Positions 12,541 to 26,776 of a DNA stretch of 64,000 nucleotides are shown in pieces. The DNA is from Pedobacter sp. HDW13. GTDB taxonomy: Bacteria > Bacteroidota > Bacteroidia > Sphingobacteriales > Sphingobacteriaceae. The stretch is taken from positions 5,270,001 to 5,334,000 of the forward strand of contig NZ_CP049868.1 in NCBI RefSeq assembly GCF_011303555.1. Direction: 5' to 3'. Position 1 is the stretch's first letter; the number at the start of each line of letters is the position of its first letter. A program made the translations under genes and the position numbers. The notes below the pieces were generated by a model. The model searched no databases and was not told where the DNA came from. It saw only the letters and a program-made list of their open reading frames with translations.

Positions 12541-12918
12541 ATGCTTTTAATAATTCTCAACAGTATCTTTTGTTTATCTTTTATAGGTTTTGCCTATGTT
12601 AACCTCAACGATGAAGATCCTTACCTGTGGGTATCTATTTACTTAAGCGCTGCAATTTGTTGTGGCTTAGCTGTTTTTGGTCTGTACTATCCATTGGTTT
12701 ACTTGTTCTTAATGGCTTTTTATCTTGTTTATGCAGCTATCCTGTTTTTTGCAAAAGATGGCGTGCGCGATTGGGTGATGAAATATAAAAGGCCTAGTTT
12801 GGTAGAGAGCATGCAGGCTACAAAACCTTATATCGAACAAACCAGAGAGTTTTTTGGCTTATTGATTATTACCGGGGCACTGCTGATTGATTATCTGGTA
12901 GCCACAGGCACCATCTAA
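12541..12918 (+). CDS. TMEM220-family small membrane protein, first gene of the ebo operon
   Basis: A 125-residue protein with about four membrane helices (roughly 1-18, 28-46, 50-70 and 106-122). The early FAYVNLNDEDPYLWV and late REFFGLLIITGALL stretches look like the TMEM220 family, whose function is unknown. It ends 27 bp before the likely eboA start and no terminator intervenes, so it is almost surely co-transcribed with the ebo genes. It could be a membrane partner of EboC or of the compound being moved; that is inference from position only. Confidence 0.75.
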   Translation: MLLIILNSIFCLSFIGFAYVNLNDEDPYLWVSIYLSAAICCGLAVFGLYYPLVYLFLMAFYLVYAAILFFAKDGVRDWVMKYKRPSLVESMQATKPYIEQTREFFGLLIITGALLIDYLVATGTI

Positions 12919-12945
12919 AAAGCATTGATCCTAAATTTCGTGAAG

Positions 12946-13803
12946 ATGAAAGCATGTGATGTGGTAACAGCCAATAAACTGTTACTTGATATTATTAAAA
13001 CCAACCTAACAGGCGAAGGACTGAACTGGCTTGAAGCATGGGAAACAACGCCTGATCAGATAAACGGTATTGGAAAGGCCTTTGTAATGGCCCCGCGCAA
13101 AACCGGGAAAGCTATTGTTCAGCTTTCAGCATTGCAGTTAGTGGCACTGGAAGATGCAGGATTAGCTTACTTAGCCCAATGGAGTATCGACAGGGTTTGC
13201 AGGGTTTGGTTATTGGGAAATTTACCAGCTACCGATCGGGATAAGTTATATGCTGCGATCGATCAGTTATTCTTATCTGCAGAAATGAACGAAGCTGTAG
13301 CTTTGTATTCGGCGCTTCCGTTTTTACCTTTTCCTGCAATTTGGGCAAAGCGTTGTGCCGAAGGCATCCGGAGTAATATCGGTTCGGTATTGGAGGCTAT
13401 TATGGAAAACAATCCTTATCCTGCGCAATATCTCGATGAAGCAGCCTGGAACCAGCTGGTATTAAAAGCATTCTTTACCGAGAAAAATATTAACCTCATT
13501 GTTGGCTTAGATGAGAGATCCAATCTCGAACTTGCTTTAACTTTAACCGATTATGCTAAAGAACGTTGGGCTGCCAGACGTAAAGTAAATCCGCAGTTGT
13601 GGCGCCTGGTAGGTAAGTTTACCAATGAGGAGATTTTTGAAGTATTAAAAACCGGTTTACAACATTACGATCAGGTAGAACAACGCGCTATTGCACTGGC
13701 AGTTGCTGCTTCTGATTATGAACCGGCAAAAGATTATATTGATACTTTTCCCGAGCTTAAAGCCGTTTTAGCAGAAGGCAGTTTAAACTGGGATAAATTT
13801 TAA
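12946..13803 (+). CDS. eboA: EboA domain-containing protein
   Basis: A soluble, mostly helical protein of 285 residues with no signal peptide or membrane helix. Sequence character (a GKAF...PRKTGK stretch near 40-55, and a HEAT-like helical C-terminal half) and above all position ahead of eboB-eboF identify it as EboA. The biochemical role is unknown; the ebo cluster as a whole has been linked in cyanobacteria to export of a scytonemin precursor to the periplasm. I place the start at ATG 12946; a TTG at 12925 would add seven residues. The next gene begins 27 bp after the stop. Confidence 0.8.
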   Translation: MKACDVVTANKLLLDIIKTNLTGEGLNWLEAWETTPDQINGIGKAFVMAPRKTGKAIVQLSALQLVALEDAGLAYLAQWSIDRVCRVWLLGNLPATDRDKLYAAIDQLFLSAEMNEAVALYSALPFLPFPAIWAKRCAEGIRSNIGSVLEAIMENNPYPAQYLDEAAWNQLVLKAFFTEKNINLIVGLDERSNLELALTLTDYAKERWAARRKVNPQLWRLVGKFTNEEIFEVLKTGLQHYDQVEQRAIALAVAASDYEPAKDYIDTFPELKAVLAEGSLNWDKF

Positions 13804-13830: not shown

Positions 13831-14817
13831 ATGTGTTGCAGTAATTCAATTGAAAGAGATAAAGCGATGATGGGAGAGCCGGAAGCGTTTGATATTAGTG
13901 TGGTAAGTGGCATGAAATTCTTCGATCCACATGTTCACATGACTTCCAGAACAACCGACGATTACCAGGCGATGGCCGATGCAGGAGTAGTTGCATTAAT
14001 AGAACCCGCATTTTGGCTGGGGCAGCCGCGTACGGGTCTGGATAGTTTCAGGGATTATTACAGCAGTTTAATCGGTTGGGAAAGATTTCGTTCATCGCAG
14101 TTTGGTATTAAACATTATTGCACCATTGGTTTAAACTCGAGAGAGGCCAACAACGAAAGTCTGTCGGAGCAGGTAATGGAAATTTTGCCACTGTTTATTT
14201 ATAAGGAAGGTGTGGTAGGTATTGGCGAAATAGGCTTTGATGACCAAACTGCTGCAGAAGAAAAATATTACCGATTACAGTTGGAACTGGCAAAAGAAGC
14301 CGGCCTTCCGGTGCAAATCCACACGCCTCACCGCGATAAGAAAAAAGGTACGCAACGCAGCATGGATATTGCTATTGAGCACGGATTAGATCCTTACAGC
14401 ATCATTATCGATCATAATAATGAAGAAACCGTAAAAGAAGTATTAGACAGAGGTTTTTTTGCTGCTTTTACAATTTATCCTTTTACCAAAATGGGTAACG
14501 AACGCATGGTCGAGATTGTAAAACAATATGGTCCTGAACGCATTATGGTTAACTCAGCTGCCGATTGGGGCATTAGCGATCCGCTGGCTGTGCCTAAAAC
14601 TGCAGCTTTAATGAAAATGCGTGGTTTAAGCAACGAAGCTATCGAAATGGTAACGTACCGCAATGCGATTACAGCCTTTGCCCAAAGCGGACAGATTGAT
14701 GAAGCTGATTTTAATGCGCCACAAAGTATCGATCAATCTGTAAAATTTGAAGGCAATACCATTTTACGTGGCGGACAACAACCGCGTACAGATAAATCGT
14801 CAATAATCATTAGTTAG
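13831..14817 (+). CDS. eboB: EboB, TatD-like metal-dependent hydrolase
   Basis: A 328-residue amidohydrolase-fold (TIM barrel) protein. The metal-ligand set can be read as His34 and His36 (FDPHVHM), Glu133 (GIGEIGFD), His164 (QIHTPH), His195 (IIDHNNEE) and Asp245 (SAADWG), as in TatD-type enzymes. Two cysteines directly after the start (MCCSN) are unusual, with no hydrophobic segment before them, so a lipoprotein is unlikely. Known TatD proteins are DNases or exonucleases, but the ebo member is expected to act on a small metabolite; that is inference from the cluster. It ends 4 bp before eboC. Confidence 0.85.
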   Translation: MCCSNSIERDKAMMGEPEAFDISVVSGMKFFDPHVHMTSRTTDDYQAMADAGVVALIEPAFWLGQPRTGLDSFRDYYSSLIGWERFRSSQFGIKHYCTIGLNSREANNESLSEQVMEILPLFIYKEGVVGIGEIGFDDQTAAEEKYYRLQLELAKEAGLPVQIHTPHRDKKKGTQRSMDIAIEHGLDPYSIIIDHNNEETVKEVLDRGFFAAFTIYPFTKMGNERMVEIVKQYGPERIMVNSAADWGISDPLAVPKTAALMKMRGLSNEAIEMVTYRNAITAFAQSGQIDEADFNAPQSIDQSVKFEGNTILRGGQQPRTDKSSIIIS

Positions 14818-14821
14818 TATC

Positions 14822-15706
14822 TTGGAAAAAATAATCGTTTACCTGCGCATCATGCGCCCGGCAAATGTGGTTACTTCTGTAGCCGATATTTTAGCTGGTA
14901 TTGCTATTTCTGGTATTTTAACTGCGGGTTTTGCCGTTCCATGGTTATCTGTTTTTTATTTATGCGCATCTACTGCCTGCCTTTACGCAGGAGGTATTGT
15001 TTTTAACGATGTTTTTGATGCCGAACTCGATAAAATAGAACGTCCGGAAAGGGCTATTCCAAGCGGAATCATTAGCCTGCAAAATGCCACGCTTTTAGGC
15101 AGCCTGTTATTATTGGCAGCTATTGGTCTGGCTTTTTTGAACAGTGTAGATTCAGGTACGTTAGCGATTTTAGTGGCTATATTTGCTTTGCTTTACAATA
15201 AATTTGGCAAGCATCATTCGTTTTTTGGCCCTTTAAACATGGGGCTATGCCGTGGTTTTAACCTCTTGTTAGGCTTAAGTATTGTACCCGAAATGCTTTA
15301 CAGTCACTATTACCTGGCCATTATTCCGGTAATTTATATTTTCTCGATCACGATGACCAGTCGTGGAGAGGTGCATGGCGGTACGGCTAAGAATTTATAC
15401 CTGGCTGCTTTGTTATATGGCATCGTAATCTGTGCCATTGCTTACTTTGCTTTTATTAACGACAGGTTATGGTGGTCGCTGCTGTTTTTATTGCCTTTTG
15501 CCTTTATGATTTTTAAACCATTGTTTAAAGCCATTAAGCAACCAATTGGTAAAAACATTGGTGCAGCGGTTAAAGCTGGGGTAATATCCTTAATTTTGAT
15601 GGATGCCGCCTGGGCGGTAACTTTCGATGCATTGATCCTCGCTTTTGTAATTGCGGCATTGCTACCCGTTTCGATGTGGCTCTCTAAATTATTTGCCGTA
15701 ACCTGA
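14822..15706 (+). CDS. eboC: EboC, UbiA-like prenyltransferase
   Basis: An integral membrane protein of 294 residues and about eight helices. The first aspartate-rich motif of UbiA enzymes, which binds the prenyl diphosphate through magnesium, is intact as NDxxDxxxD (Asn62 to Asp70). At the position expected for the second aspartate motif the sequence reads MTSRGEVHGG (178-187) with no Asp, so the active site is not standard. The start is TTG at 14822, 4 bp after eboB, because MEKIIVYLRIMRPANVV is the usual UbiA lead-in; the first ATG (14852) would clip it. Probably prenylates the cluster's product or an intermediate, or acts as a membrane anchor for it; substrate unknown. Confidence 0.85.
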   Translation: MEKIIVYLRIMRPANVVTSVADILAGIAISGILTAGFAVPWLSVFYLCASTACLYAGGIVFNDVFDAELDKIERPERAIPSGIISLQNATLLGSLLLLAAIGLAFLNSVDSGTLAILVAIFALLYNKFGKHHSFFGPLNMGLCRGFNLLLGLSIVPEMLYSHYYLAIIPVIYIFSITMTSRGEVHGGTAKNLYLAALLYGIVICAIAYFAFINDRLWWSLLFLLPFAFMIFKPLFKAIKQPIGKNIGAAVKAGVISLILMDAAWAVTFDALILAFVIAALLPVSMWLSKLFAVT

Positions 15707-15734: not shown

Positions 15735-16910
15735 ATGGAACATTTACAACAATCCTTTACTGTACAATACAATTATAATATTTTCTTTACCTCAGCACTT
15801 TTTGCTGTCGAAAATAAGTTATTCAGTGATTTTCTAAGCCAGCTTAATCCGGCTGTAACCATAAAAAAGATCCTTTTTGTAATTGATGAAGGGGTAGCTG
15901 AAGCGCATACAGCTTTAACTGCTGAAATAAAGCAATACTTTAATAAGTACAATCAAACGCAACTTGTTCAGGATATTATCGTAATTCCCGGTGGCGAACT
16001 GGTTAAAAATGATACCCAATATCTCGAACGGATTTTAGAAGCCATCAATACCCATGGTATCGACAGGCATTCTTTTGTAGCAGCTATTGGTGGTGGTGCC
16101 GTGCTGGATATGGTGGGTTATGCGGCAACCATTGCGCACAGGGGTATTAAACATATCCGCATTCCGAGTACAGTACTTTCTCAGAACGATTCGGGAGTTG
16201 GAGTTAAGAATGGTATCAATTATTTCAATAAGAAAAACTTTCTGGGTACTTTCTCTCCGCCTGTTGCAGTGTTTAACGACGAATTGTTTTTGAATACACT
16301 GTCTGATCGCGATTGGCGTTCGGGCATTGCCGAGGCGATTAAAGTGGCCCTGATAAAAGATTTGGAATTTTTTGAGTGGTTGGAAGCCAATGCCACAGCG
16401 CTGGCGCATCGCGATAGGGAAGCCATGAATTATCAGATCTGGAAATGTGCCAAACTACACCTGGAACACATCCGTAGTGCCGATCCTTTCGAAAACGGAT
16501 CAGCTCGTCCGCTTGATTTTGGTCATTGGAGTGCACATAAACTCGAGTATTTAACCAATTTCGAAATCAGGCATGGCGAAGCAGTGGCGATGGGTATTGC
16601 ATTAGATGCGGTATATTCAAACTTATCGGGTAGAATAAGTGCTGCAGATTCCCAAAGAGTTATTGCGGTAATTCAGGCTTTAGGCTTTGAATTAACGCAT
16701 CCATTACTTCAGGTAGAAGGCGATAATAGCCCTATTTTACAAGGTTTAGAAGAGTTTAGAGAACACCTGGGTGGACAACTTACCATCACCTTGCTTACTG
16801 CGCTAGGTAAAGGAGAAGAAGTTCACGAAATAGATGCTGTAATCTTAAAACAAGCGGCCGAATCGTTGCAAAATCAGGCTGCTGCACATTCAACTGCTAC
16901 TGCGTTATGA
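15735..16910 (+). CDS. eboD: EboD, dehydroquinate-synthase-like sugar phosphate cyclase
   Basis: A 391-residue NAD- and zinc-dependent cyclase of the AroB/C7-cyclitol synthase superfamily. The nucleotide-binding turn is AAIGGGAVLD (117-125). Zinc ligands are Glu200 (GIAEAIK), His264 (DFGHWSAH) and His280 (IRHGEAVAMG). Two places depart from true 3-dehydroquinate synthases: GVKNGIN around 156-161 replaces the usual GGKTGIN, and Asp261 stands where those enzymes carry Asn (LNFGH). As I recall, the Asn-to-Asp change is seen in 2-epi-5-epi-valiolone-type synthases, so a cyclitol-like product is plausible. It should not be taken as the shikimate-pathway aroB. The stop overlaps the eboE start by 4 bp (ATGA). 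Confidence 0.87.
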   Translation: MEHLQQSFTVQYNYNIFFTSALFAVENKLFSDFLSQLNPAVTIKKILFVIDEGVAEAHTALTAEIKQYFNKYNQTQLVQDIIVIPGGELVKNDTQYLERILEAINTHGIDRHSFVAAIGGGAVLDMVGYAATIAHRGIKHIRIPSTVLSQNDSGVGVKNGINYFNKKNFLGTFSPPVAVFNDELFLNTLSDRDWRSGIAEAIKVALIKDLEFFEWLEANATALAHRDREAMNYQIWKCAKLHLEHIRSADPFENGSARPLDFGHWSAHKLEYLTNFEIRHGEAVAMGIALDAVYSNLSGRISAADSQRVIAVIQALGFELTHPLLQVEGDNSPILQGLEEFREHLGGQLTITLLTALGKGEEVHEIDAVILKQAAESLQNQAAAHSTATAL

Positions 16911-18118
16911 AACTAAGTTCAGGTCATTTAACCTTTTGTACCAATATATATGCCGGCGAAAGCTGGTCAGCACATTTTGCAGTACTGAAAGATAGCTTTC
17001 CAAAGCTAAAGGCAGCTTTATCACCCGATGAACCCATGGGCATAGGCTTGCGTCTTTCTAATCTGGCCAGCATAGAATTACTTGAAGCAGCACAGCTAAC
17101 AGCATTTAAACAATGGCTGGATGCTGAGGGTGCTTATGTTTTTACCATGAACGGCTTCCCTTATGGAGGCTTTCACTATACCCGCGTTAAAGATCAGGTA
17201 CATGCACCCGACTGGACTACAACAGAACGATTGGATTATACCTTACGTTTAGCTGAAATACTGGCACAACTGGTTCCGGATAATATGGATGCGGGTATTT
17301 CTACCTCGCCATTGAGTTACAAACCCTGGTTTAAAGCGGATTCGGAAAGACAGGTAGCAACAGTTAAAGCAACAAGTCATGTTTTGGCTGTAGCCCAGGC
17401 GCTGAATAAAATATACCAAAATACCGGAAAACTAATTCACCTGGATATTGAACCAGAACCAGATGGTTTTCTTGAATCTGGTCCTGAATTTATCGACTGG
17501 TATGAAAACGAACTTTTACCAGCCGGAAAAACTGCATTTGCAGCACAGGCTGGTTTAACTGCCGAAAAGGCTGTAGAAATAATTAAAACGCACATTTGCC
17601 TGTGTTACGATGTTTGTCACTTTGCCATCGGCTACGAACCGCATGCTGCAATTGTACAGGAGCTACAGGAAAAAGGTATTCAAGTTGGTAAGATTCAGAT
17701 CAGTGCCGCTTTAAAGGCAAAATTGCCTGAAGCTGGTGCCGACAGAACAGCAGTATTAAATGCACTTGCTGGTTTTGATGAACCGGTTTACCTGCATCAG
17801 GTAATTGCACAAAAGAATGATGGAAGTTTAATTCGCTATCCTGATTTGTCAAATGCATTGGCCGATGCTGGCAGGCAAGAGGTACAAGAGTGGCGCGCGC
17901 ATTTCCATGTGCCAATCTTTGTGGAGGAGATGGGGTTAATTCAATCTACCCAGGCCGATATCAGTGCAGTGTTAACATTACAAAAGAACAATCCTTTTAC
18001 CAATCATCTCGAGGTAGAAACTTATACCTGGGAGGTACTGCCTGCACAATTGAAGGCACCTTTAAACGAATCTATTATCCGCGAACTCGATTGGGTAAAA
18101 AATACATTAGCACAGTAA
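16907..18118 (+). CDS. eboE: EboE, sugar-phosphate-isomerase-like TIM-barrel protein
   Basis: A 403-residue soluble protein of the ebo cluster, usually named metabolite traffic protein EboE and distantly like xylose isomerase/endonuclease IV TIM barrels. The opening SGHLTFCTNIYAGESW is characteristic. Possible metal-binding residues are seen in HLDIEPEPDG (near 181-190), YDVCHFAIGYEP (near 232-243) and FVEEMG (near 340). The reaction is unknown. It overlaps eboD by 4 bp and ends 4 bp before eboF, so translation is likely coupled along the operon. Confidence 0.82.
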   Translation: MKLSSGHLTFCTNIYAGESWSAHFAVLKDSFPKLKAALSPDEPMGIGLRLSNLASIELLEAAQLTAFKQWLDAEGAYVFTMNGFPYGGFHYTRVKDQVHAPDWTTTERLDYTLRLAEILAQLVPDNMDAGISTSPLSYKPWFKADSERQVATVKATSHVLAVAQALNKIYQNTGKLIHLDIEPEPDGFLESGPEFIDWYENELLPAGKTAFAAQAGLTAEKAVEIIKTHICLCYDVCHFAIGYEPHAAIVQELQEKGIQVGKIQISAALKAKLPEAGADRTAVLNALAGFDEPVYLHQVIAQKNDGSLIRYPDLSNALADAGRQEVQEWRAHFHVPIFVEEMGLIQSTQADISAVLTLQKNNPFTNHLEVETYTWEVLPAQLKAPLNESIIRELDWVKNTLAQ

Positions 18119-18122
18119 AAAC

Positions 18123-19472
18123 ATGCATAAAACAGTTGTAATCGATATTGTAGGCTTATCTAAGTCAGTTATTGGCGCAAATACACCTTTCTTACAGAAA
18201 TATATTGCTGAAAAACATTTAACCACAATAGCGCCTTTGCTGCCTGCGGTTACTACTGCTGCACAATCGGCTTATTTGACAGGGAAATACCCTGCAGATA
18301 ATGGTATTGTTGGCAATGGTTGGTACGACCATGCAGAAAGTGAAGTAAAGTTCTGGAAACAATCGAACAAACTTGTTCAGGGCGAAAAGATTTGGGATAA
18401 AGCCAAACAGGAAGATCCTAATTTTACCTGTGCCAATATGTTCTGGTGGTACAATATGTATTCGACTGTTGATTATTCGGTAACCCCGCGACCAAATTAC
18501 CTGGCCGATGGACGTAAACTTCCCGATTGTTATTCGCAACCTGCTGAACTACGCGATCACTTGCAAACGAAATTAGGGCAATTCCCCTTATTCCAGTTTT
18601 GGGGGCCAGGGGCTAATATTAAATCGACCCGATGGATTGCCGATGCAGCTATGGAAACCGAAAACCTGCACACCCCAACACTAACGCTGATCTATTTGCC
18701 GCATCTGGATTACTGCTTACAGAAGTTTGGTCCGGATGAAGCTAAAATCGGTACTGAATTGAAGGAGATAGATCAGGTGGTTGCCGATTTGGTTGCTTTT
18801 TACGAAAATAAAGGTGCACGCGTAATTTTACTTTCCGAGTATGGTATTGCACCGGTAAATAACCCCATTCACCTTAACCGTTTGTTCAGGGAGAATGGTT
18901 TGATTCAAATCCGTGAAGAACGTGGTTTGGAATTGCTCGATGCTGGTGCTTCAAAAGCATTTGTAGTAGCCGATCATCAGATTGCGCACGTATACATTAA
19001 TGATAAATCGGTTACCGAACAGGTAAAAGCTTTGCTTAAAAACGTTCCGGGTATAGAACTGGTTCTTGATAAAGCAGCACAACAAACGCACCACATTAAC
19101 CACGAACGCTCCGGCGACCTGGTACTCATGGCCGATGAAAACAGCTGGTTTACCTATTATTTCTGGTTAGATGATGCCAAAGCTCCTGACTATGCCAGGG
19201 TGGTTGATATTCATAAAAAACCAGGTTACGATCCGGTTGAAATGTTTATGACCTCAAAATTACGTGCAGGTTATAAATTACTGAGAAAAAAGGCAGGCTT
19301 CAGGTACGTGATGGATGTGATTCCGCTGGATGCTACCTTAATTAAAGGATCGCACGGAAGGATAAACACCAAAGAAGAATTCAAGCCCGTATTGGTTACG
19401 CCTAACAAGATCGATAAAGCTTTAACGCCGGTAGATGTTTACCAGGTGATATGGGATAGTTTGACTTTATAG
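18123..19472 (+). CDS. eboF: EboF, nucleotide-pyrophosphatase-like protein with altered metal site
   Basis: A 449-residue member of the alkaline phosphatase superfamily (NPP branch) and last gene of the operon. Asp8, the nucleophile Thr44 (PAVTTAAQS), Asp196 (LPHLD) and His411 (KGSHGR) are at the usual NPP positions. Three other metal ligands are changed: the His four residues after Asp196 is Gln200, and the Asp-His pair is Glu239-Tyr240 (LLSEYGIAP). A normal two-zinc centre therefore looks unlikely. There is no signal peptide, so it should be cytoplasmic, unlike the exported phosphatase encoded just downstream on the other strand. Its substrate is unknown. A strong hairpin follows the stop. 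Confidence 0.82.
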   Translation: MHKTVVIDIVGLSKSVIGANTPFLQKYIAEKHLTTIAPLLPAVTTAAQSAYLTGKYPADNGIVGNGWYDHAESEVKFWKQSNKLVQGEKIWDKAKQEDPNFTCANMFWWYNMYSTVDYSVTPRPNYLADGRKLPDCYSQPAELRDHLQTKLGQFPLFQFWGPGANIKSTRWIADAAMETENLHTPTLTLIYLPHLDYCLQKFGPDEAKIGTELKEIDQVVADLVAFYENKGARVILLSEYGIAPVNNPIHLNRLFRENGLIQIREERGLELLDAGASKAFVVADHQIAHVYINDKSVTEQVKALLKNVPGIELVLDKAAQQTHHINHERSGDLVLMADENSWFTYYFWLDDAKAPDYARVVDIHKKPGYDPVEMFMTSKLRAGYKLLRKKAGFRYVMDVIPLDATLIKGSHGRINTKEEFKPVLVTPNKIDKALTPVDVYQVIWDSLTL

Positions 19473-19556: not shown

Positions 19557-20795
19557 CTAATTAACCGTAATCCATTTGTTCAGGCTATTATTCGCGCCCT
19601 CTACAACAATTTTATAAAAGGTAGACGAATAATCTTTCAAATCGGCAAAATAGTGCTGTTGGTTGAGATCCACAGTCGCCAGTAAATGGTAATTGTCTTT
19701 CCCACCTGTTTTAAATTCGTTCGTGGTAGCCAGCCATATTTTTACCTTTCCATTCTTTTCGAGCGCCTTCCAGCTAATATCGAGGTGTTTCTGCATAGGA
19801 TTGACTTTAAGGTTAGCCAAAGAAACAGGACCGATAAATGGTATTCCATCAATTTCCTGTAAAACACTTTCGGGTAGCTGTACATGGAGGTAACGGGCTA
19901 TCGAAGGCATAATATCTACCACACCCAGATCAAAATACTGCGCATAGGTATTCAGGTTTTTGTAATTGCTAACCATCCAGGTAGATCTTTGCCTGTCTGA
20001 TTGCCCACCATGACCACGCCCGGTTTTCTCATCGCGTCCATGGTCGGTAGTGATGATAATTAACCAGTCTTCTTTAAATTTCTGCTGGCGATAGTTAATT
20101 GCATCCCAAATTTTTCCTATCTGTGCATCAAGCAGTGTAATGGCATTAGAAAACTCCGGACTATCTCCATAGCGGTGCCCCATATCGTCGGTATATTCCA
20201 GATAAATCCATGAAAGATCCGGAGCATTTTGTTGTAGGGTATGGGCAGCCTGTTTGATAACTTCTTCATCAATCTGATGCATATAAGCCGATTTTTTGTC
20301 GTGCTTAAAGCGTACAGTATCCAGTTCAAAGCCATCAAAAGCATAATCGGGCTTAAAGTTGCCGGTAGCAGCCAGTCCATCGCCAAGCAATTTCGTTCTG
20401 TTATCGGTCCAGCTCGAAAATATAGCTGTTTTTTTATTGGGATACTGGTTTTTGAACACCCTGAAAATATGCTGATAGTTGTAATTAGGTGCCTTAATGT
20501 CGTTATCAGGCACATTGTGTTTATTTACCCAGGTACCGGTAAGTAAACTGTTATAGCCTACAGCAGAGATGGTTGGCGTTTCGTTATAGGTGCCTTTGTC
20601 GCCTCCCACATGCATGCGTGAGTAGGCACCTGCCGTGATGATCTTCTTAAAATTAGGCAGGTTTTCTCGTTCTATCACATCTGCAGGAATGCCATCAGCG
20701 ATAATGTAAACCACTTTCTGCTGACGCTGTTGTGCATTTACAATGGTTGATAAACCCAAGCAGGTAGTAAAAATAACAATCTTCAAGCGCTTCAT
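19557..20795 (-). CDS. Exported alkaline phosphatase superfamily protein
   Basis: A 412-residue secreted enzyme (signal peptide [22 protein letters not shown]) of the nucleotide pyrophosphatase/phosphodiesterase-like group. Readable metal and active-site residues are Asp34 ([10 protein letters not shown]), a likely Ser77 nucleophile ([13 protein letters not shown]), DDMGHRYGD with Asp and His, and the TTDHGRD pair followed by GRGHGG. The C-terminal 80 or so residues look like a small beta domain. It is the last gene of the SusC-SusD-metallophosphoesterase operon, 17 bp after its neighbour, so it likely removes phosphate from, or cleaves a phosphodiester in, whatever the system binds. Confidence 0.82.
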
Positions 20796-20812: not shown

Positions 20813-21733
20813 TTAAAAGGAGTGAGGATAATAGGTGTTTTCTACAGTGCCATCAGTATATAGTTTTAACATGGCATATCCTGGAGGCGTTTCTAGATAA
20901 TAACCCGGGCCAGCTGATTCGGCATCGCCTTTACCCCACCAAAAGCCACTCATGGCACCATTACAACAATAAAGCACACCATTATATGCGGTATGATCAG
21001 AAAGGTGGTTGTGACCACTTAAACAGATTTTAACTTTATCGCGGTGTTTATAGAAAAGATCCTTTAGCTTTTTGGCATCCGAATGACCACCGCCTACCAA
21101 TACCTGTGTGGTACCCAAAATAGGATAATGCGACATGATTACCGTAGGTGTAGCCGCTGGTAATTTTTCCAGCTCCTGCTGCAACCAGTTGTACTGTTCA
21201 TCATCAAGTGATATTTTGCTGTTGTTACCATCCAGAATAATAAAATGCCAGTTCTTTTTCGAAAAGCTATAATAACGGTGTGGGATTTTTAAGCGTTTAA
21301 CAACATAGTCTTTACCGTACATTTCATCAGTCTTTGCCGGTGCTTTCCACCAGGGATCGTGATTGCCAATACAGCTGTAAACCTCATGTTTTTCCATACC
21401 TTTAAGGCAGTCATCCCATATCGCCCATTGTTCGGTAACCTGATCGCGTACTACATTATCATATGAGGCATCGTTTATTGAATCGCCTCCGTTTAAGAAA
21501 AAATCTGGCTTATGCTTGCCAATAATCTGTTTTAGGCAGCTCTTAAAACGCTCAGGTGCATTATCACCCGGACGGATGTGTACATCGGTAATATGTGCCA
21601 CGCTAAGTGCCAGTTTTTTATCCTTTCTGTTTTCGCTTTCATTAGCTGTAGCGAAGGCAGGAAGGCTGCCGGTTGCTAATGCACCGGCAGCCAAGCCTAC
21701 TGTTTTTAATAGTGTTCTTCTTTTTATTTCCAT
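20813..21733 (-). CDS. Metallophosphoesterase with Tat signal
   Basis: A 306-residue calcineurin-like phosphoesterase. The twin-arginine export signal is [18 protein letters not shown] (3-20). Two-metal ligands are Asp50 and His52 (ITDVHIRPG), Asp84 (NGGDSIND), Asn124 and His125 (IGNHDPWW), then SHYPILG and GHNHLSDH. It is therefore an exported phosphomonoesterase or phosphodiesterase. It begins 3 bp after the susD-like gene ends and is followed by an exported phosphatase, which makes a four-gene operon for a phosphorylated nutrient the best reading. Confidence 0.87.
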
Positions 21734-21736
21734 GGT

Positions 21737-23527
21737 TTACCAGCCAAAAATCTGTTTAAGTTTAGGGTTAAGGGTAACTTGTTGTTGCGGAATAGGGCGG
21801 TAGTAGAATTTAGGCTCTTCAAAATTCCTAATCACACTTTCGGTTACAATGTTGCCTCCGCTGTTGCCAGCTTTCAGGTACACAGTAGCATCAGTTCCAA
21901 TGGTTCCGGCACGGTAATATACCAGTTTTACACCTAACGAGTTTTTCTCTTTTTGTTCTTCTGCCGGAACGGTGGCCGTTCTGTCAATTAAGATAATGTC
22001 ATCAACACCATCGCCGGTAAGGTCGTATTTACCTAAGCCTGCAAAGTACATACCTTCTGGACCTTTGGTCAGTAATTTGCCCGCTTTCCAACGCATCAGA
22101 TCATCATATCTTAAGTTTTCGAAGGCAAATTCTACCCTGCGCTCGCGTCTGATTTCGAAGATTACACCCGCGTTTGCGACTACATTCGGATATTGCTGTT
22201 GCAACATCGCATCGGGATTGGCATTTGCAGAACCCAGATTAAGATCGGGCATGCCTGCTCTTTTCCTTAGTAAATTTACCGATTGGTCTAAGTCTGATTG
22301 TGTTAAAGTACCCAGTTCGGCAAGTGCCTCAGCATAGTTAAGCAAAATTTCTGCATAACGGTAAACCGGGAAATCGACACCATTTAAGATGTTATTATCG
22401 GTACTGTTTACATAACCTTTTAGCTGGTGGTAACCGGTAAAGTTTTTGTTTAAACGTTGGATGTAAGGCGTTGCATCAGGTACCCTGGTCCAACCCGGAT
22501 ATACCATGGTTTGCGACATGCGGGGATCGCGGTTTTTAAACTCATCAACAAAACTCTTTTGCGCATAACCCGCTATATCAGTAAAACGCGTACCATCTTT
22601 CATCAGGTAGGTAAGCAGCAGGTCTTTGGCCGGAGCCTGTTCGTAATCGCCAAATACTACACCGTTAACGTTTTGTCCTTTACTTTTGCTCAGGTCGAAA
22701 ATGTTGGCTAAAATCACTTCACTGTTACCGGTTAAATCCTGGCTCGCGAATAAAGTTGCATAATCCTGGTCAGGGCGGTTAGTGTTGTAAATGGTGAATT
22801 TTTTGGCTGTTATAATTTCGCCTGCAACCCTTGCTGCAGTTTGTAAGAAAGTATTTGCAGAACCGCTTAGGTTTAATTCACTGTGGTATTTGCGATAAGT
22901 ACCTTCGTATAAAGCCGCACGGGTGTATAAGGTAGCCACAGCCCATTTGCCTGGGGTACCAACGGGTACACTTTCCCTAACATTTTTATAGGCAAAATCT
23001 AAATCAGCCATAATGCTGTCGGCTATTAGCGCACGCGGATCACGAGGCTTGTAGAGTGCTTCATCCCCAGGCTCTAAAGTCCCCGAGTACCAGGGTACAT
23101 CCGAAAAGCGCTTTATTTTATCGAGATAGAACTCTGCACGATAATAACGGGCAAGACCGGCATAATGATTTTTAATCGCACCAGTAACCTGTGCTTTCTT
23201 AAAATTCTCTAAAAAGTAATTTATGTTACGCAATCTGCCCCAGCTCCAGCCGGTTGTAATGTTTTGGGCATTCGCACTTCCTAACATGATGTTTTTAACC
23301 TCAACAGCGGCTGTAGTGGCTACGTTATCGGTACTCTGATCGTTCAGGTAACTGTTGCGATCGGGTTGCGATAACAGACCGTTTACATACAAGGCCAAAT
23401 CCTCTTCTGTATTGAAGAAAAGATTGGGTGAAATAGAGGTTTGCGGATAGCGGTCTAAGTCACCTTTTTTACAGGCGGTAAATGTACCGGCAAGACCAAT
23501 AAACAATATATATATGTACTTTTTCAT
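21737..23527 (-). CDS. SusD/RagB-family nutrient-binding lipoprotein
   Basis: A 596-residue outer-surface lipoprotein with the lipobox TFTAC (Cys19) followed by KKGDLDRYPQ. The N-terminal TPR-like part of SusD proteins and the C-terminal RagB domain are both present; PVYRYAEILLNYAEALAELG and FEIRRERRVEFAFENLRYDDLMRW are strongly typical of the family. It caps the SusC channel that precedes it by 36 bp and gives ligand specificity. The neighbours are phosphoesterases rather than glycoside hydrolases, so the ligand may be a phosphorylated small molecule. Confidence 0.93.
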   Translation of the reverse strand: MKKYIYILFIGLAGTFTACKKGDLDRYPQTSISPNLFFNTEEDLALYVNGLLSQPDRNSYLNDQSTDNVATTAAVEVKNIMLGSANAQNITTGWSWGRLRNINYFLENFKKAQVTGAIKNHYAGLARYYRAEFYLDKIKRFSDVPWYSGTLEPGDEALYKPRDPRALIADSIMADLDFAYKNVRESVPVGTPGKWAVATLYTRAALYEGTYRKYHSELNLSGSANTFLQTAARVAGEIITAKKFTIYNTNRPDQDYATLFASQDLTGNSEVILANIFDLSKSKGQNVNGVVFGDYEQAPAKDLLLTYLMKDGTRFTDIAGYAQKSFVDEFKNRDPRMSQTMVYPGWTRVPDATPYIQRLNKNFTGYHQLKGYVNSTDNNILNGVDFPVYRYAEILLNYAEALAELGTLTQSDLDQSVNLLRKRAGMPDLNLGSANANPDAMLQQQYPNVVANAGVIFEIRRERRVEFAFENLRYDDLMRWKAGKLLTKGPEGMYFAGLGKYDLTGDGVDDIILIDRTATVPAEEQKEKNSLGVKLVYYRAGTIGTDATVYLKAGNSGGNIVTESVIRNFEEPKFYYRPIPQQQVTLNPKLKQIFGW

Positions 23528-23563
23528 TTAATTGTTTTTGAAATGTGATAAATCTTTGTTGGA

Positions 23564-26500
23564 TTAGAAATCAAGGTTTAAACCTATTGCATACCTACGT
23601 TGGTAAGGGTAAGCCCAGGCTGATGGGCCCTGGTTAACTGCTTCAGGATCGATAAATTTCTTGATTGTAGAAAACTCATAAAGATTATCGGCGGTTACAA
23701 ATAAGCGCAAACGGTTAATGCTCACTTTTTTAGTCCATTTAGCAGGGAAGGTGTAACCTAATGATACGTTTTTGATACGCAGGTAAGCACCGTTTAACAG
23801 GTATTTGGTTTGCGGGATATCCAATCCGGCACCGTAGTTGGCATCAGCAAGCCACGATTGTAATACAGGGTATTGCGAATCGGTATTGGCATCGGCCAGA
23901 CCAGCTGCCAGATAAGCAGCCGAATGTTTTGCACGTTGCTCGGGAGAATCTGCTGCGCCGCGGTAAAAATCAAGATTCCATGGGTATACGTTTGCGTAAG
24001 GCTGTTGGTACGGACCCCAGAAAAGATAATGGTGCGGATAAAAATCTCTTTTCAATACCCCTTGTAAGAATACCGAAATATCAAAACCGTTCCAGTCCAT
24101 ATTCAGGTTTGCGCCAATGGTATAGCGGTCGGCACTATTACCAATTATTTTTAAATCTTTCGGATCGTTTGCACTTAAGCCGCGTTCTATTTTCTTATTG
24201 CCATCCTGATCAACATATTTTGGCCAGCCTTCTACAATAGATAATGCACCCCATGGAATAATGGCCGATTCATCTAAAGCAGCAATTTCTGCTTTACTGC
24301 GGAAAACACCATCGTTTTCCAATCCCCATATTTCGCCAAGAGTTTGTCCTTCACGGAAAGCACTTGAAAACAAGTTCTGGTCGTTCTTATATTTAGTAAT
24401 TTTGGCCTTAGAATCGGCAAGGAATATTTTGGTTTCGAAATTGAAAGGTTTATCAGCTACTATAAACTTATCTCTGTACGATACCGAAAGTTCCCACCCT
24501 TTAGTACGCAGATCTGCAACATTTTGACGTGGTGGTGCGGTTCCCATTACACCCGGTAGCTCCTGTCCATTAGCTAACATTCCTTTTGTATCACGGATGT
24601 AGTAATCGAAAGTGAAGGAAAGTTTATCGTTTAGCAGCCCGATATCAGTACCCAGATTTAGAGTCGATACCCTCTCCCAGGTATAAGTTTTTGGATCTAT
24701 TTTTAAACCCGGTGCACCGTTAATGATCTGGTTTTGGCCGGCACCACCAATCAGGTAACCCGATGTACTTGTTTCCAACGATTGGATATAGCTAAAGTCA
24801 CCTACATTTTGGTTACCCAAATCGCCATAAGAGGCACGCAGTTTAAATGTATTGAAAGCTGGGGCCAATGGCTTAAAGAATTCTTCGTTACTGGCTATCC
24901 AGGCCACAGAAGCTGATGGGAAAAATCCCCACCGTCTCAGAACTGGAAAACGTGATGAACCATCGTACCGACCGGTAGCTTCTAATATATATCTGTTTTT
25001 ATAAGTGTAGTTTAAACGGCTGAAGGCACTGTTGGTGGCATAAGCAGTATAGCCTGCAGTTGCTGTAGCCGCACCACTGGTAAGCGAAAGATAAGGTGTT
25101 GATGAAGAAATAAGCACCTGTCTCGACGCATTTACTGCAGAATAATTGTAGTCTTCACTGTTAAAACCTGCCATGGCGCTAAAAAAATGATCGCCAATTG
25201 TTTTTTTATAGGTGGCGTATAAGTTAAAGGCATTATTGTACAGGTAACCATTGTTCTCGCTTACTGAGCCGGTTCCGCCTTCTTCACGAATATCGTTAGG
25301 GCCATAACCGATTTTATATTTTTTGGCATCCGCATGGCTTTTCCAAAGCTCGCGCTTAAAAGAGGCATCACCATTTACCTGTAAGTCGCCATTTAAAAAG
25401 AGGGCAGTGGCGCTTGTAATGTTCTGAAAGCCAAACATGTTTTGTAAGCTTTTTCCGCCATCTACCAATCTTGCAGCCAATCTCCCGGCTGATGTATTGG
25501 CCCAGGTACCATCGGGGTTTGTAGCCACATCGGTTGGCATCAGGTAATAAAGGTCAGTAATGCTTGAGTTTGGCAGCGCCCGCTTGGTTTCATAAATGTT
25601 CAGGTTATTATCAACCTTAAGCCACGAAATTGGCGAGAAACCTACTTTTGATCTTAAGCCATAACGGTCCCAGTAATCGGCCGTTAATTTGTTTAAACCA
25701 TTATCTTTAGCATAATCAGCCGATAGATAATAGGTTAGAGGCTTGTTATTTACAGTAGCACCGCCCGAAAAAGTAAGGGTATGGCTTTTAGATAAACTCT
25801 GATTGTTAAAAAAATAGTTGTACCAATCGTTACTACCCATATAAGCCCATTTTGTAGGGTCTTTCGGATCGAGGCGCGTATCAGCGATGGATGGGTTGTC
25901 TGATCTTTCTTTAGCCCACTTGTAGTATTCGTCAGAATAATTAACATAATCCCATGGGGTGTTATCTGTTGCTGTTTCCAGTACCCTCGAGAAAATGTAA
26001 GGGTCGGTTACAGGCTTAGGCAATAAAGTTGGTTTGGCCCATGACAGGTAAGTATTGTAGCTAATTACATTACGACCAGCAGCGCCTTGTTTGGTGGTGA
26101 TTAAAATTACACCGAAAGCTGCCCTGGCACCATAAATAGCAGACGAAGCTGCATCGCGCAATACGGTAAACGACGTAATATCAGAAGGGGTTAAGCGTAA
26201 CATATCGTCGTTGCTTGTAGCCGGAATACCATCAATTACAATTAATGGAGAACCACCGTTAATTGAAGTATATCCCCTGATATTGATATTGGGTAGCGAG
26301 CCTGGCGCACCACCGGCATAGGTAATGTTTAAACCCGGGCTAATTCCCTGCAAACCTTGCAGTACGTTAGTTACCGGCCTTGACTCGAGTTGCTTGCCCG
26401 AAATCTGATCGATTGCACCGGCAATGTTGATTTTTTTCTTTGTGCCAAAACCAACTACTACAACTTCATCCAGGTTAGCGTAATCGGGCATTAGGGCTAC

Positions 26501-26776
26501 ATCTATTTTTGTTTGTCCGTTTAATGCAATTTCTTGCTGTTTATAGCCAATGTAAGTGAAAACCAGAATAGCATTTGCCTTCAGGTCGTTAATTGTATAA
26601 GCACCATTGCCATTAGTAGCGAGGTGCTGATTTGTTCCTCTTACCGAAATGTTTACGGCAGGGAGGGTTTCTTTAGTCTTTGCATCAGAGACTACCCCTT
26701 TTACGGTAATACCCTGGGCAAAGGCGCTGGCCGATAAAATCAGCAGCGCAAAAATCCATAATAGTTTTTTTTTCAT
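23564..26776 (-). CDS. SusC/RagA-family TonB-linked outer membrane transporter
   Basis: A 1070-residue TonB-dependent importer. Signal peptide MKKKLLWIFALLILSASAFA, then a carboxypeptidase-regulatory-like domain (about 22-100), the family phrase LDEVVVVGFGTKKKINIAGA (103-122), a plug domain with the SusC signature IRGYTSINGGSPLIVIDGIP, and a 22-strand barrel ending in Phe. It forms the channel for the SusD-like lipoprotein encoded next. It is the first gene of the operon and is divergent from a TetR regulator 190 bp away, which may control it. No anti-sigma factor pair of the usual SusC type is seen nearby. Confidence 0.95.
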   Translation of the reverse strand: MKKKLLWIFALLILSASAFAQGITVKGVVSDAKTKETLPAVNISVRGTNQHLATNGNGAYTINDLKANAILVFTYIGYKQQEIALNGQTKIDVALMPDYANLDEVVVVGFGTKKKINIAGAIDQISGKQLESRPVTNVLQGLQGISPGLNITYAGGAPGSLPNINIRGYTSINGGSPLIVIDGIPATSNDDMLRLTPSDITSFTVLRDAASSAIYGARAAFGVILITTKQGAAGRNVISYNTYLSWAKPTLLPKPVTDPYIFSRVLETATDNTPWDYVNYSDEYYKWAKERSDNPSIADTRLDPKDPTKWAYMGSNDWYNYFFNNQSLSKSHTLTFSGGATVNNKPLTYYLSADYAKDNGLNKLTADYWDRYGLRSKVGFSPISWLKVDNNLNIYETKRALPNSSITDLYYLMPTDVATNPDGTWANTSAGRLAARLVDGGKSLQNMFGFQNITSATALFLNGDLQVNGDASFKRELWKSHADAKKYKIGYGPNDIREEGGTGSVSENNGYLYNNAFNLYATYKKTIGDHFFSAMAGFNSEDYNYSAVNASRQVLISSSTPYLSLTSGAATATAGYTAYATNSAFSRLNYTYKNRYILEATGRYDGSSRFPVLRRWGFFPSASVAWIASNEEFFKPLAPAFNTFKLRASYGDLGNQNVGDFSYIQSLETSTSGYLIGGAGQNQIINGAPGLKIDPKTYTWERVSTLNLGTDIGLLNDKLSFTFDYYIRDTKGMLANGQELPGVMGTAPPRQNVADLRTKGWELSVSYRDKFIVADKPFNFETKIFLADSKAKITKYKNDQNLFSSAFREGQTLGEIWGLENDGVFRSKAEIAALDESAIIPWGALSIVEGWPKYVDQDGNKKIERGLSANDPKDLKIIGNSADRYTIGANLNMDWNGFDISVFLQGVLKRDFYPHHYLFWGPYQQPYANVYPWNLDFYRGAADSPEQRAKHSAAYLAAGLADANTDSQYPVLQSWLADANYGAGLDIPQTKYLLNGAYLRIKNVSLGYTFPAKWTKKVSINRLRLFVTADNLYEFSTIKKFIDPEAVNQGPSAWAYPYQRRYAIGLNLDF

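Follow-up and report, generated by a model that had tools for sequence, protein, structure and literature searches.

Conserved replacement of canonical metal-ligand positions in EboF, the final gene product of the ebo operon of Pedobacter sp. HDW13

The eboABCDEF operon of Pedobacter sp. HDW13 ends with eboF, the product of which resembles enzymes of the NPP and PhnA type. Does EboF have the two-metal active site of those enzymes? If the site has changed, what chemistry might remain? The answers matter in several ways. In the published pathway schemes EboF is taken to act by hydrolysis on a substrate that contains phosphate. A rebuilt site would call that step into question and would make an automatic label such as 'nucleotide pyrophosphatase/phosphodiesterase family protein' misleading. 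EboF also offers a naturally occurring test of the extent to which superfamily chemistry relies on the buried metal.

The stretch of DNA analysed, referred to as the window, comprises 64,000 nucleotides of the 6.38 Mb host genome (contig NZ_CP049868.1, positions 5,270,001 to 5,334,000). All six ebo genes are on the + strand. The operon starts with eboA (12925-13803), the product of which carries the EboA domain NF035938 (E 5.8e-50, 169.2 bits, above the cut-off of 50) and matches NF035937 with an E-value of 3.2e-63 but with 213.5 bits, below the cut-off of 320. There follow eboB (13831-14817; TatD-like, PF01026, 3e-17), eboC (14822-15706; UbiA-like, NF035940, 4.4e-117, above the cut-off), eboD (15735-16910; a sugar phosphate cyclase similar to DHQ synthase, PF01761, 1.2e-33) and eboE (16907-18118; a TIM barrel, NF035939, 4.9e-149, above the cut-off). 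The open reading frame of eboF (18123-19472) encodes 449 amino acids and was assigned by Pfam to PF01663, of the alkaline-phosphatase superfamily. Directly upstream of eboA is a gene for a TMEM220-family membrane protein (12541-12918, + strand; PF15071, 9.8e-25).

EboF matches the whole of the PF01663 profile (positions 1-342 of 342) with an E-value of 4.5e-63 and 214.4 bits against a cut-off of 23, and is a member of that family. The score against the PhnA equivalog TIGR02335 is 37.9 bits, the cut-off is 407.55, and EboF is not assigned to PhnA. It is identified as EboF by its close relatives inside ebo clusters. A tblastn survey of eboF with the window's proteins covered 89 loci, of which 69 have genes A to F in order and three have all six reordered; 16 others carry eboF with some of the ebo genes and one carries eboF alone, contig ends explaining some of the absences. 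Among the best 80 of at least 577 confirmed loci, mostly from Bacteroidota, the nearest are from Pedobacter with a best identity of 94%.

An AlphaFold2 model calculated with a 75-row alignment has a pLDDT of 94.9 and a pTM of 0.93. It superposes on 5veo_A with a Z-score of 33.3 and an rmsd of 2.8 over 331 aligned residues, and an NPP/PhnA fold can be predicted with confidence. The best Foldseek match is to PhnA (1ei6_C, E 5.2e-20). VIA-align places NPP5, NPP4 and Xac NPP nearest, with Z up to 33.3, and gives PhnA 1ei6_A a Z of 31.1, rows within 1 Z counting as tied. A midpoint-rooted tree sets the EboF, haloarchaeal and orphan sequences apart from six NPP rows with support of 98/94; the NPP branches are long, the fork around the orphan is open and little beyond the EboF/NPP split is supported. 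The family, the fold and the catalytic Thr and Asn are shared with the NPPs (Xac NPP, ENPP1-7), in which, unlike EboF, the two-zinc ligands are conserved.

The preliminary description of this DNA remarked that EboF lacks a signal peptide. None is visible by eye and the first strand of the model begins at residue 4. As evidence of a changed function the observation is weak, since three PhnA proteins (L125, L165 and L166) likewise show, by eye, a short N-terminal lead alone and no obvious hydrophobic stretch, and eukaryotic EboF is described as having no apparent targeting sequence (Yurchenko et al., PMC5133447).

Where do the metal ligands fall? In PhnA the buried metal is bound by D29, T68, D250 and H251, and the outer metal by D211, H215 and H377, as listed in a review (PMC7916636). 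A phmmer alignment to PhnA 3szy places T44, N65, D196, Q200, E239 and Y240 of EboF on T68, N89, D211, H215, D250 and H251. The match is weak, with a whole-sequence E of 0.00022, and T44 and N65 lie in a stretch scoring just 4.6 bits. The 3szy numbers are our reading of the chain index minus 3, an offset that is constant over all six positions. The same columns are obtained for EboF by hhalign and by MAFFT with three PhnA sequences, and both align H411 with the His of SHGG in PhnA, which we take as H377. An hhalign comparison with a set of NPPs placed the last canonical His near KPGYDP. This candidate was rejected because hhalign and MAFFT with PhnA, and also the profile alignment to Xac NPP (in a third domain with a negative score), put the residue on KGSHG and match the segment downstream of it.

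The first ligand needs particular care. The preliminary description listed Asp8 among the retained ligands, and here it was mistaken. The canonical Asp aligns with Val10 (codon 18150-18152, + strand; PhnA D29, SPAP D49) in the profile alignment to Xac NPP 2gsn and in hhalign alignments both to the NPPs of the same genome and to PhnA. With MAFFT this column holds Asp in six of seven canonical relatives, the seventh, which is without that stretch, having a gap. A further alignment is less informative at this point: L124 is meaningless there as its longest ORF is not the PF01663 ORF, L121 is out of alignment at its N-terminal end and L026 starts past the first strand, which leaves the first Asp visible in four of the seven canonical rows.

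The superpositions point to the same register. Residue 1 of the model meets residue 20 of 3szy, and nine residues on Val10 meets D29. Residue 1 also meets residue 45 in Xac NPP, 27 in NPP5, 23 in ENPP6, 30 in ENPP7, 162 in most autotaxin rows and 191 in mouse NPP1. In each of these proteins the starting residue plus nine is what we take to be the known first Asp. The argument presumes that the first ten residues are gapless, and there are exceptions, since some autotaxin rows start at 163 rather than 162 and 3t02 starts at 20 in one superposition and at 18, a misfit, in another.

Asp8 itself (codon 18144-18146, + strand) is variable, with 84 Asp, 38 Asn, one Ser and one Leu among 124 EboF sequences. 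It is Asp in all four haloarchaeal relatives and Cys, Ser, Gly or Ile in canonical relatives. Being variable and two residues out of register, it was rejected as a metal ligand. It aligns with Ser47 of SPAP, two residues before the ligand D49, and Ser47 contacts His93, four residues after the nucleophile (PMC3145672). The position of His93 is taken in EboF by Gln48 (codon 18264-18266, + strand), which is fixed in 124 of 124 EboFs and in four of four haloarchaeal proteins. We read Asp8 as a second-shell residue.

The counts derive from 132 bacterial EboF rows from Bacteroidota, Cyanobacteria, Deinococcus, Alpha- and Betaproteobacteria and Streptomyces. Merging of six identical pairs gave 126 distinct sequences, with 124 at less than 99.5% identity and 107 at less than 90%. 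The sample as a whole is bacterial and haloarchaeal. The distant lineages are represented by six plasmid-borne bacterial EboFs (12 of 70 matched plasmid records were used), four haloarchaeal loci, L106, L107 and the cyanobacteria. An orphan, L025, and a canonical NPP, L026, were set aside from all EboF counts, as were the orphans L149-L151 from the count of 124.

The nucleophile position, Thr44 (codon 18252-18254, + strand), is retained in all 124 EboFs and in four of four haloarchaeal relatives. So are the outer-metal His411 (19353-19355, + strand) and the outer-metal Asp196, which with Gln200 spans 18708-18722 (+ strand; PhnA D211 and H215). Gln200 replaces the second outer His in 124 of 124 EboFs; the haloarchaeal proteins have Gln once and Leu three times. 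Asn65 (18315-18317, + strand), at the position of the Asn that contacts phosphate oxygen (NPP N111, SPAP N110, PhnA N89), is likewise invariant in the 124 and is Asn in one and Ser in three of the haloarchaeal proteins. The buried-site Asp-His pair is replaced by Glu239-Tyr240 (18837-18842, + strand), and the first buried-site Asp by Val10, in every EboF and every haloarchaeal relative. At the places of VG and EYG in EboF, two NPPs of the same genome (L122 and L123) carry DG and DHG.

The preliminary description was accurate in the letters that it named (D8, T44, D196, Q200, E239, Y240 and H411), in the retention of Thr44, Asp196 and His411, and in placing Q200, E239 and Y240 at ligand positions, on which phmmer to 3szy, hhalign and MAFFT agree. 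The check that it set beforehand, conservation of Gln and Glu-Tyr, gave 124 of 124, with Glu-Tyr in all four haloarchaeal proteins and Gln in one. In stating that half of the ligands are lost it counted three replacements and missed the fourth. As the canonical Asp falls on Val10 rather than on Asp8, four of the seven canonical positions are replaced (V10, Q200, E239 and Y240) with T44, D196 and H411 remaining. The loss of the canonical two-metal site is therefore more pronounced than was claimed: the Thr nucleophile of the two-zinc NPP/PhnA arrangement is present, the buried Asp, Asp, His are Val, Glu, Tyr, and the outer Asp, His, His keeps D196 and H411 with Gln200 for one His. The roles offered in the preliminary description, namely a one-metal enzyme, a transferase and a non-catalytic protein, are all still plausible.

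Sixteen positions are fixed in 124 of 124 sequences: V10, T44, Q48, N65, H194, D196, Q200, E239, Y240, D284, H285, H289, K366, D370, E373 and H411. V10, Q200, E239 and Y240 are fixed also in the 107 sequences at less than 90% identity. The four haloarchaeal relatives (33-36% identity) share all fixed residues except those at 200 and 65. Over 119 EboF rows, five of them duplicates of others in the set, and the four haloarchaeal rows, 48 of 449 columns are fixed. H194 is not specific to EboF, there being a His at the same column in Xac NPP.

Could the pattern be an artefact of alignment or annotation, or the mark of a decaying gene? Some observations would fit an artefact, namely the two-residue error in the earlier register of the first ligand, the misalignment of the canonical L121 at its N-terminus and the single hhalign result that put the last His elsewhere. 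Against them, hmmsearch, hhalign, MAFFT and the superposition offsets share one register, and none of the sites varies among the 124 near-distinct EboFs. An artefact or pseudogene is rejected on this conservation and we regard either as extremely improbable. Simple decay is also at odds with the fixed Thr44, Asn65, Asp196 and His411 and with an insert that is both new and invariant.

The insert is a feature of the EboF clade. It occupies approximately residues 340-405 (19140-19337, + strand) and is absent from PhnA by comparison of lengths. From Gly331 to His411 there are 80 residues in EboF and 62 in each of the four haloarchaeal proteins (L140-L143); the equivalent spacing in the PhnA proteins L165, L166 and L125 is 31, 32 and 31. 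Within the insert is the motif KPG[YF]DPxE (residues 366-373; 19218-19241, + strand), in which K366, P367, G368, D370, P371 and E373 are invariant in 123 of 123 EboF and haloarchaeal rows. The insert is ordered in the model from the 75-row alignment, with block means of 79 to 91 for residues 351-400; with a 19-row alignment pLDDT is below 50 at residues 358-378 and 388-399. A second invariant segment, DHQxAH (284-289; 18972-18989, + strand), lies in the region of the PhnA motif TDPYVxHHG. D284, H285 and H289 are fixed in the 124 sequences, and MAFFT and hhalign disagree on the register with PhnA His294 and His295.

EboF thus resembles PhnA (1ei6, 3szy; TIGR02335) in its aligned Thr, Asn, outer Asp and last His, its short N-terminal lead and a His-bearing segment in the same region. 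It differs in having no equivalents of D29, D250, H251 and H215 and in the longer stretch before the last His. The alignments show that the canonical buried metal site is missing, that the outer site is altered, that the nucleophile position is kept and that a new, equally fixed set of residues is present. With the canonical ligands of the buried metal lost and new residues equally fixed, the phosphodiesterase function given in catalogues is doubtful.

One might propose that EboF still holds two metals, perhaps iron or manganese, with E239, Y240, H285, H289, D370 and E373 as ligands. Metal binding by Glu and Tyr is known from other enzymes, and several of the new invariant residues are His, Asp or Glu. 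PhnA is reported to be most active with Fe2+ and Mn2+ (PMC7916636). We nevertheless judge a two-metal EboF improbable, given that the first buried-site Asp is an invariant Val, that Asp-His has become the bulkier Glu-Tyr and that the outer site is the better kept of the two.

The reading that we prefer, with a probability of roughly 55%, places EboF in the cytosol, as a protein of the NPP/PhnA fold whose site has been rebuilt. Thr44 would carry out phosphoryl chemistry without the buried metal and with at most one, outer, metal. The change would have arisen once, before the split of haloarchaeal and bacterial EboFs. With the buried (Zn2, alpha) metal absent, any metal would sit at the outer (Zn1, beta) site on Asp196 and His411. 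Thr44 would be activated by Glu239 or by the D284/H285/H289 cluster, and the phosphate would be held with the help of Asn65, or Ser in three haloarchaea, and of the insert. The substrate would probably come from the ebo pathway, as a phosphorylated cyclitol or a prenyl phosphate, and transfer is at least as likely as hydrolysis. We propose more tentatively, from the sequence comparisons, that EboF represents a lineage of the alkaline-phosphatase superfamily without a buried metal, a phosphotransferase acting on a cyclitol or prenyl phosphate by means of Thr44 and a protein base (Glu239 or DHQxAH) and aided by KPG[YF]DPxE. Q200 is conserved in just one of the four haloarchaeal proteins, as is N65, which counts against the preferred reading. 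In addition, Glu and Tyr may bind metals here, other ligands may have been recruited, and invariance of the site is also to be expected of a pseudoenzyme that binds a ligand.

Such a protein is the main rival to the preferred reading. EboF would then be non-catalytic, binding a phosphorylated pathway intermediate or acting as a scaffold for Ebo proteins, and the fixed residues would line a ligand pocket. The buried site and the second outer His are gone in 124 of 124 EboFs, as such a role would allow. The genetics of Nostoc punctiforme are compatible with it too. Each ebo deletion tested (A, B, C, E and F) is described as giving no scytonemin, the monomer staying in the cytoplasm (PMC6282210), and this uniform phenotype would fit a complex. 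The eboF deletion also shows that EboF matters in this organism, in keeping with the preferred reading. As the phenotype is the same for all tested deletions, the genetics cannot separate catalysis from binding. We consider a non-catalytic EboF rather unlikely, in that a pure binder need not keep T44, D196 and H411, which are fixed in 124 of 124 EboFs and in four of four haloarchaeal proteins. A pure scaffold is in addition hard to reconcile with eukaryotes, some of which reportedly carry eboF as their sole ebo gene (PMC5133447).

Orphan proteins from one genus, g5, bear on both readings. Among 147 genomes of one family 16 have an EboF-like gene, which is an ordinary EboF in 13 and an orphan in three, all of that genus. 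The orphans are approximately 30% identical to EboF and keep open reading frames without the site, as a non-catalytic protein might. All three have lost H194, D196, Q200, E239 (Asp in three of three), Y240 and H411, position 44 is Ser, Ser and Ile, and the insert motif is reduced to scattered letters. N65, D284 and H289 are kept in three of three and H285 in two of three. EboE is absent from g5 and EboC is over its cut-off in none of the three genomes; both are present in five of five comparison genomes, in one of which, G296, the EboC match passes when joined with an in-frame neighbour. In favour of the preferred reading, this suggests that the fold can do without the majority of the residues and that their loss accompanies that of the pathway. 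The evidence amounts to a single event in one genus, the T44S and E239D changes are mild and L151 is poorly aligned at its ends. Stand-alone EboF-like genes in one Bacteroidota genus, with frames open in three species, are found at L146:8842-10218 and in L150 and L151.

In the ebo clusters the pathway itself is not decaying, since EboB, EboC, EboD and EboE (76, 74, 79 and 84 of the 89 loci counted) retain many fixed His, Asp and Glu residues. The cluster, or a relative of it, is found across several phyla of bacteria and also in haloarchaea, and ebo genes are also reported from algal plastids (PMC5133447). According to a review, the EDB cluster in E. coli leads to indoles that repel C. elegans (PMC9655573). 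Ubi-297, a homologue of EboC produced in E. coli, is described as farnesylating 8-hydroxyquinoline-2-carboxylic acid (PMC9235831).

Four ebo-like clusters, one from Streptomyces (L028:2232-3362) and three of the four haloarchaeal loci (L140:6727-7914, L142:6794-7990 and L143:6743-7942), contain a homologue of inositol-1-phosphate synthase (PF07994/PF01658). EboD was not found in these loci by tblastn with the window's proteins, which supports the published cyclitol idea; a swap of cyclitol synthases is possible in these clusters. The fourth haloarchaeal locus, L141, has no inositol-1-phosphate synthase homologue within the 17 kb annotated. Xylose-isomerase-like TIM barrels are also present in L028 and L140.

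EboF was previously considered a putative hydrolase of a phosphate-containing substrate in a separate PF01663 lineage (PMC5133447). The main text of that paper has no occurrence of 'active site' or 'residues' and does not mention metal ligands. In the open-licence PubMed Central literature we found no description of metal-ligand changes in EboF, no report of its enzymatic role and no work on pseudoenzymes that bears on it. A partial parallel is YejM/PbgA, also alkaline-phosphatase-like and of disputed enzyme status, in which Thr302 and Asp268 are at a bound metal (PMC7576196). Unlike EboF it is the periplasmic domain of a membrane protein and is nearer LtaS and EptA.

Some further observations concern individual loci. 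A cyanobacterial eboF (L147:7708-9141) is on a different contig from eboE and adjoins, by eye, trp/aro-like genes and glycosyltransferases, as in the scytonemin region. The record of a second Streptomyces locus, L145, begins just ahead of eboF. An ebo cluster of Bacteroidota type (L058), with an EboF that is 70% identical, is found in a metagenome-assembled genome under the actinobacterial name Williamsia. The same EboF sequence occurs in a genome assigned to the class of the window, so the record is probably mislabelled. In the window, eboF is followed directly, in convergent orientation, by a gene for another PF01663 protein, which has the motifs DG and DHG (19557-20795, - strand). Beyond it lie a gene for a calcineurin-like phosphoesterase (20813-21733, - strand) and, by eye, a SusD/SusC-like pair (21737-26776).
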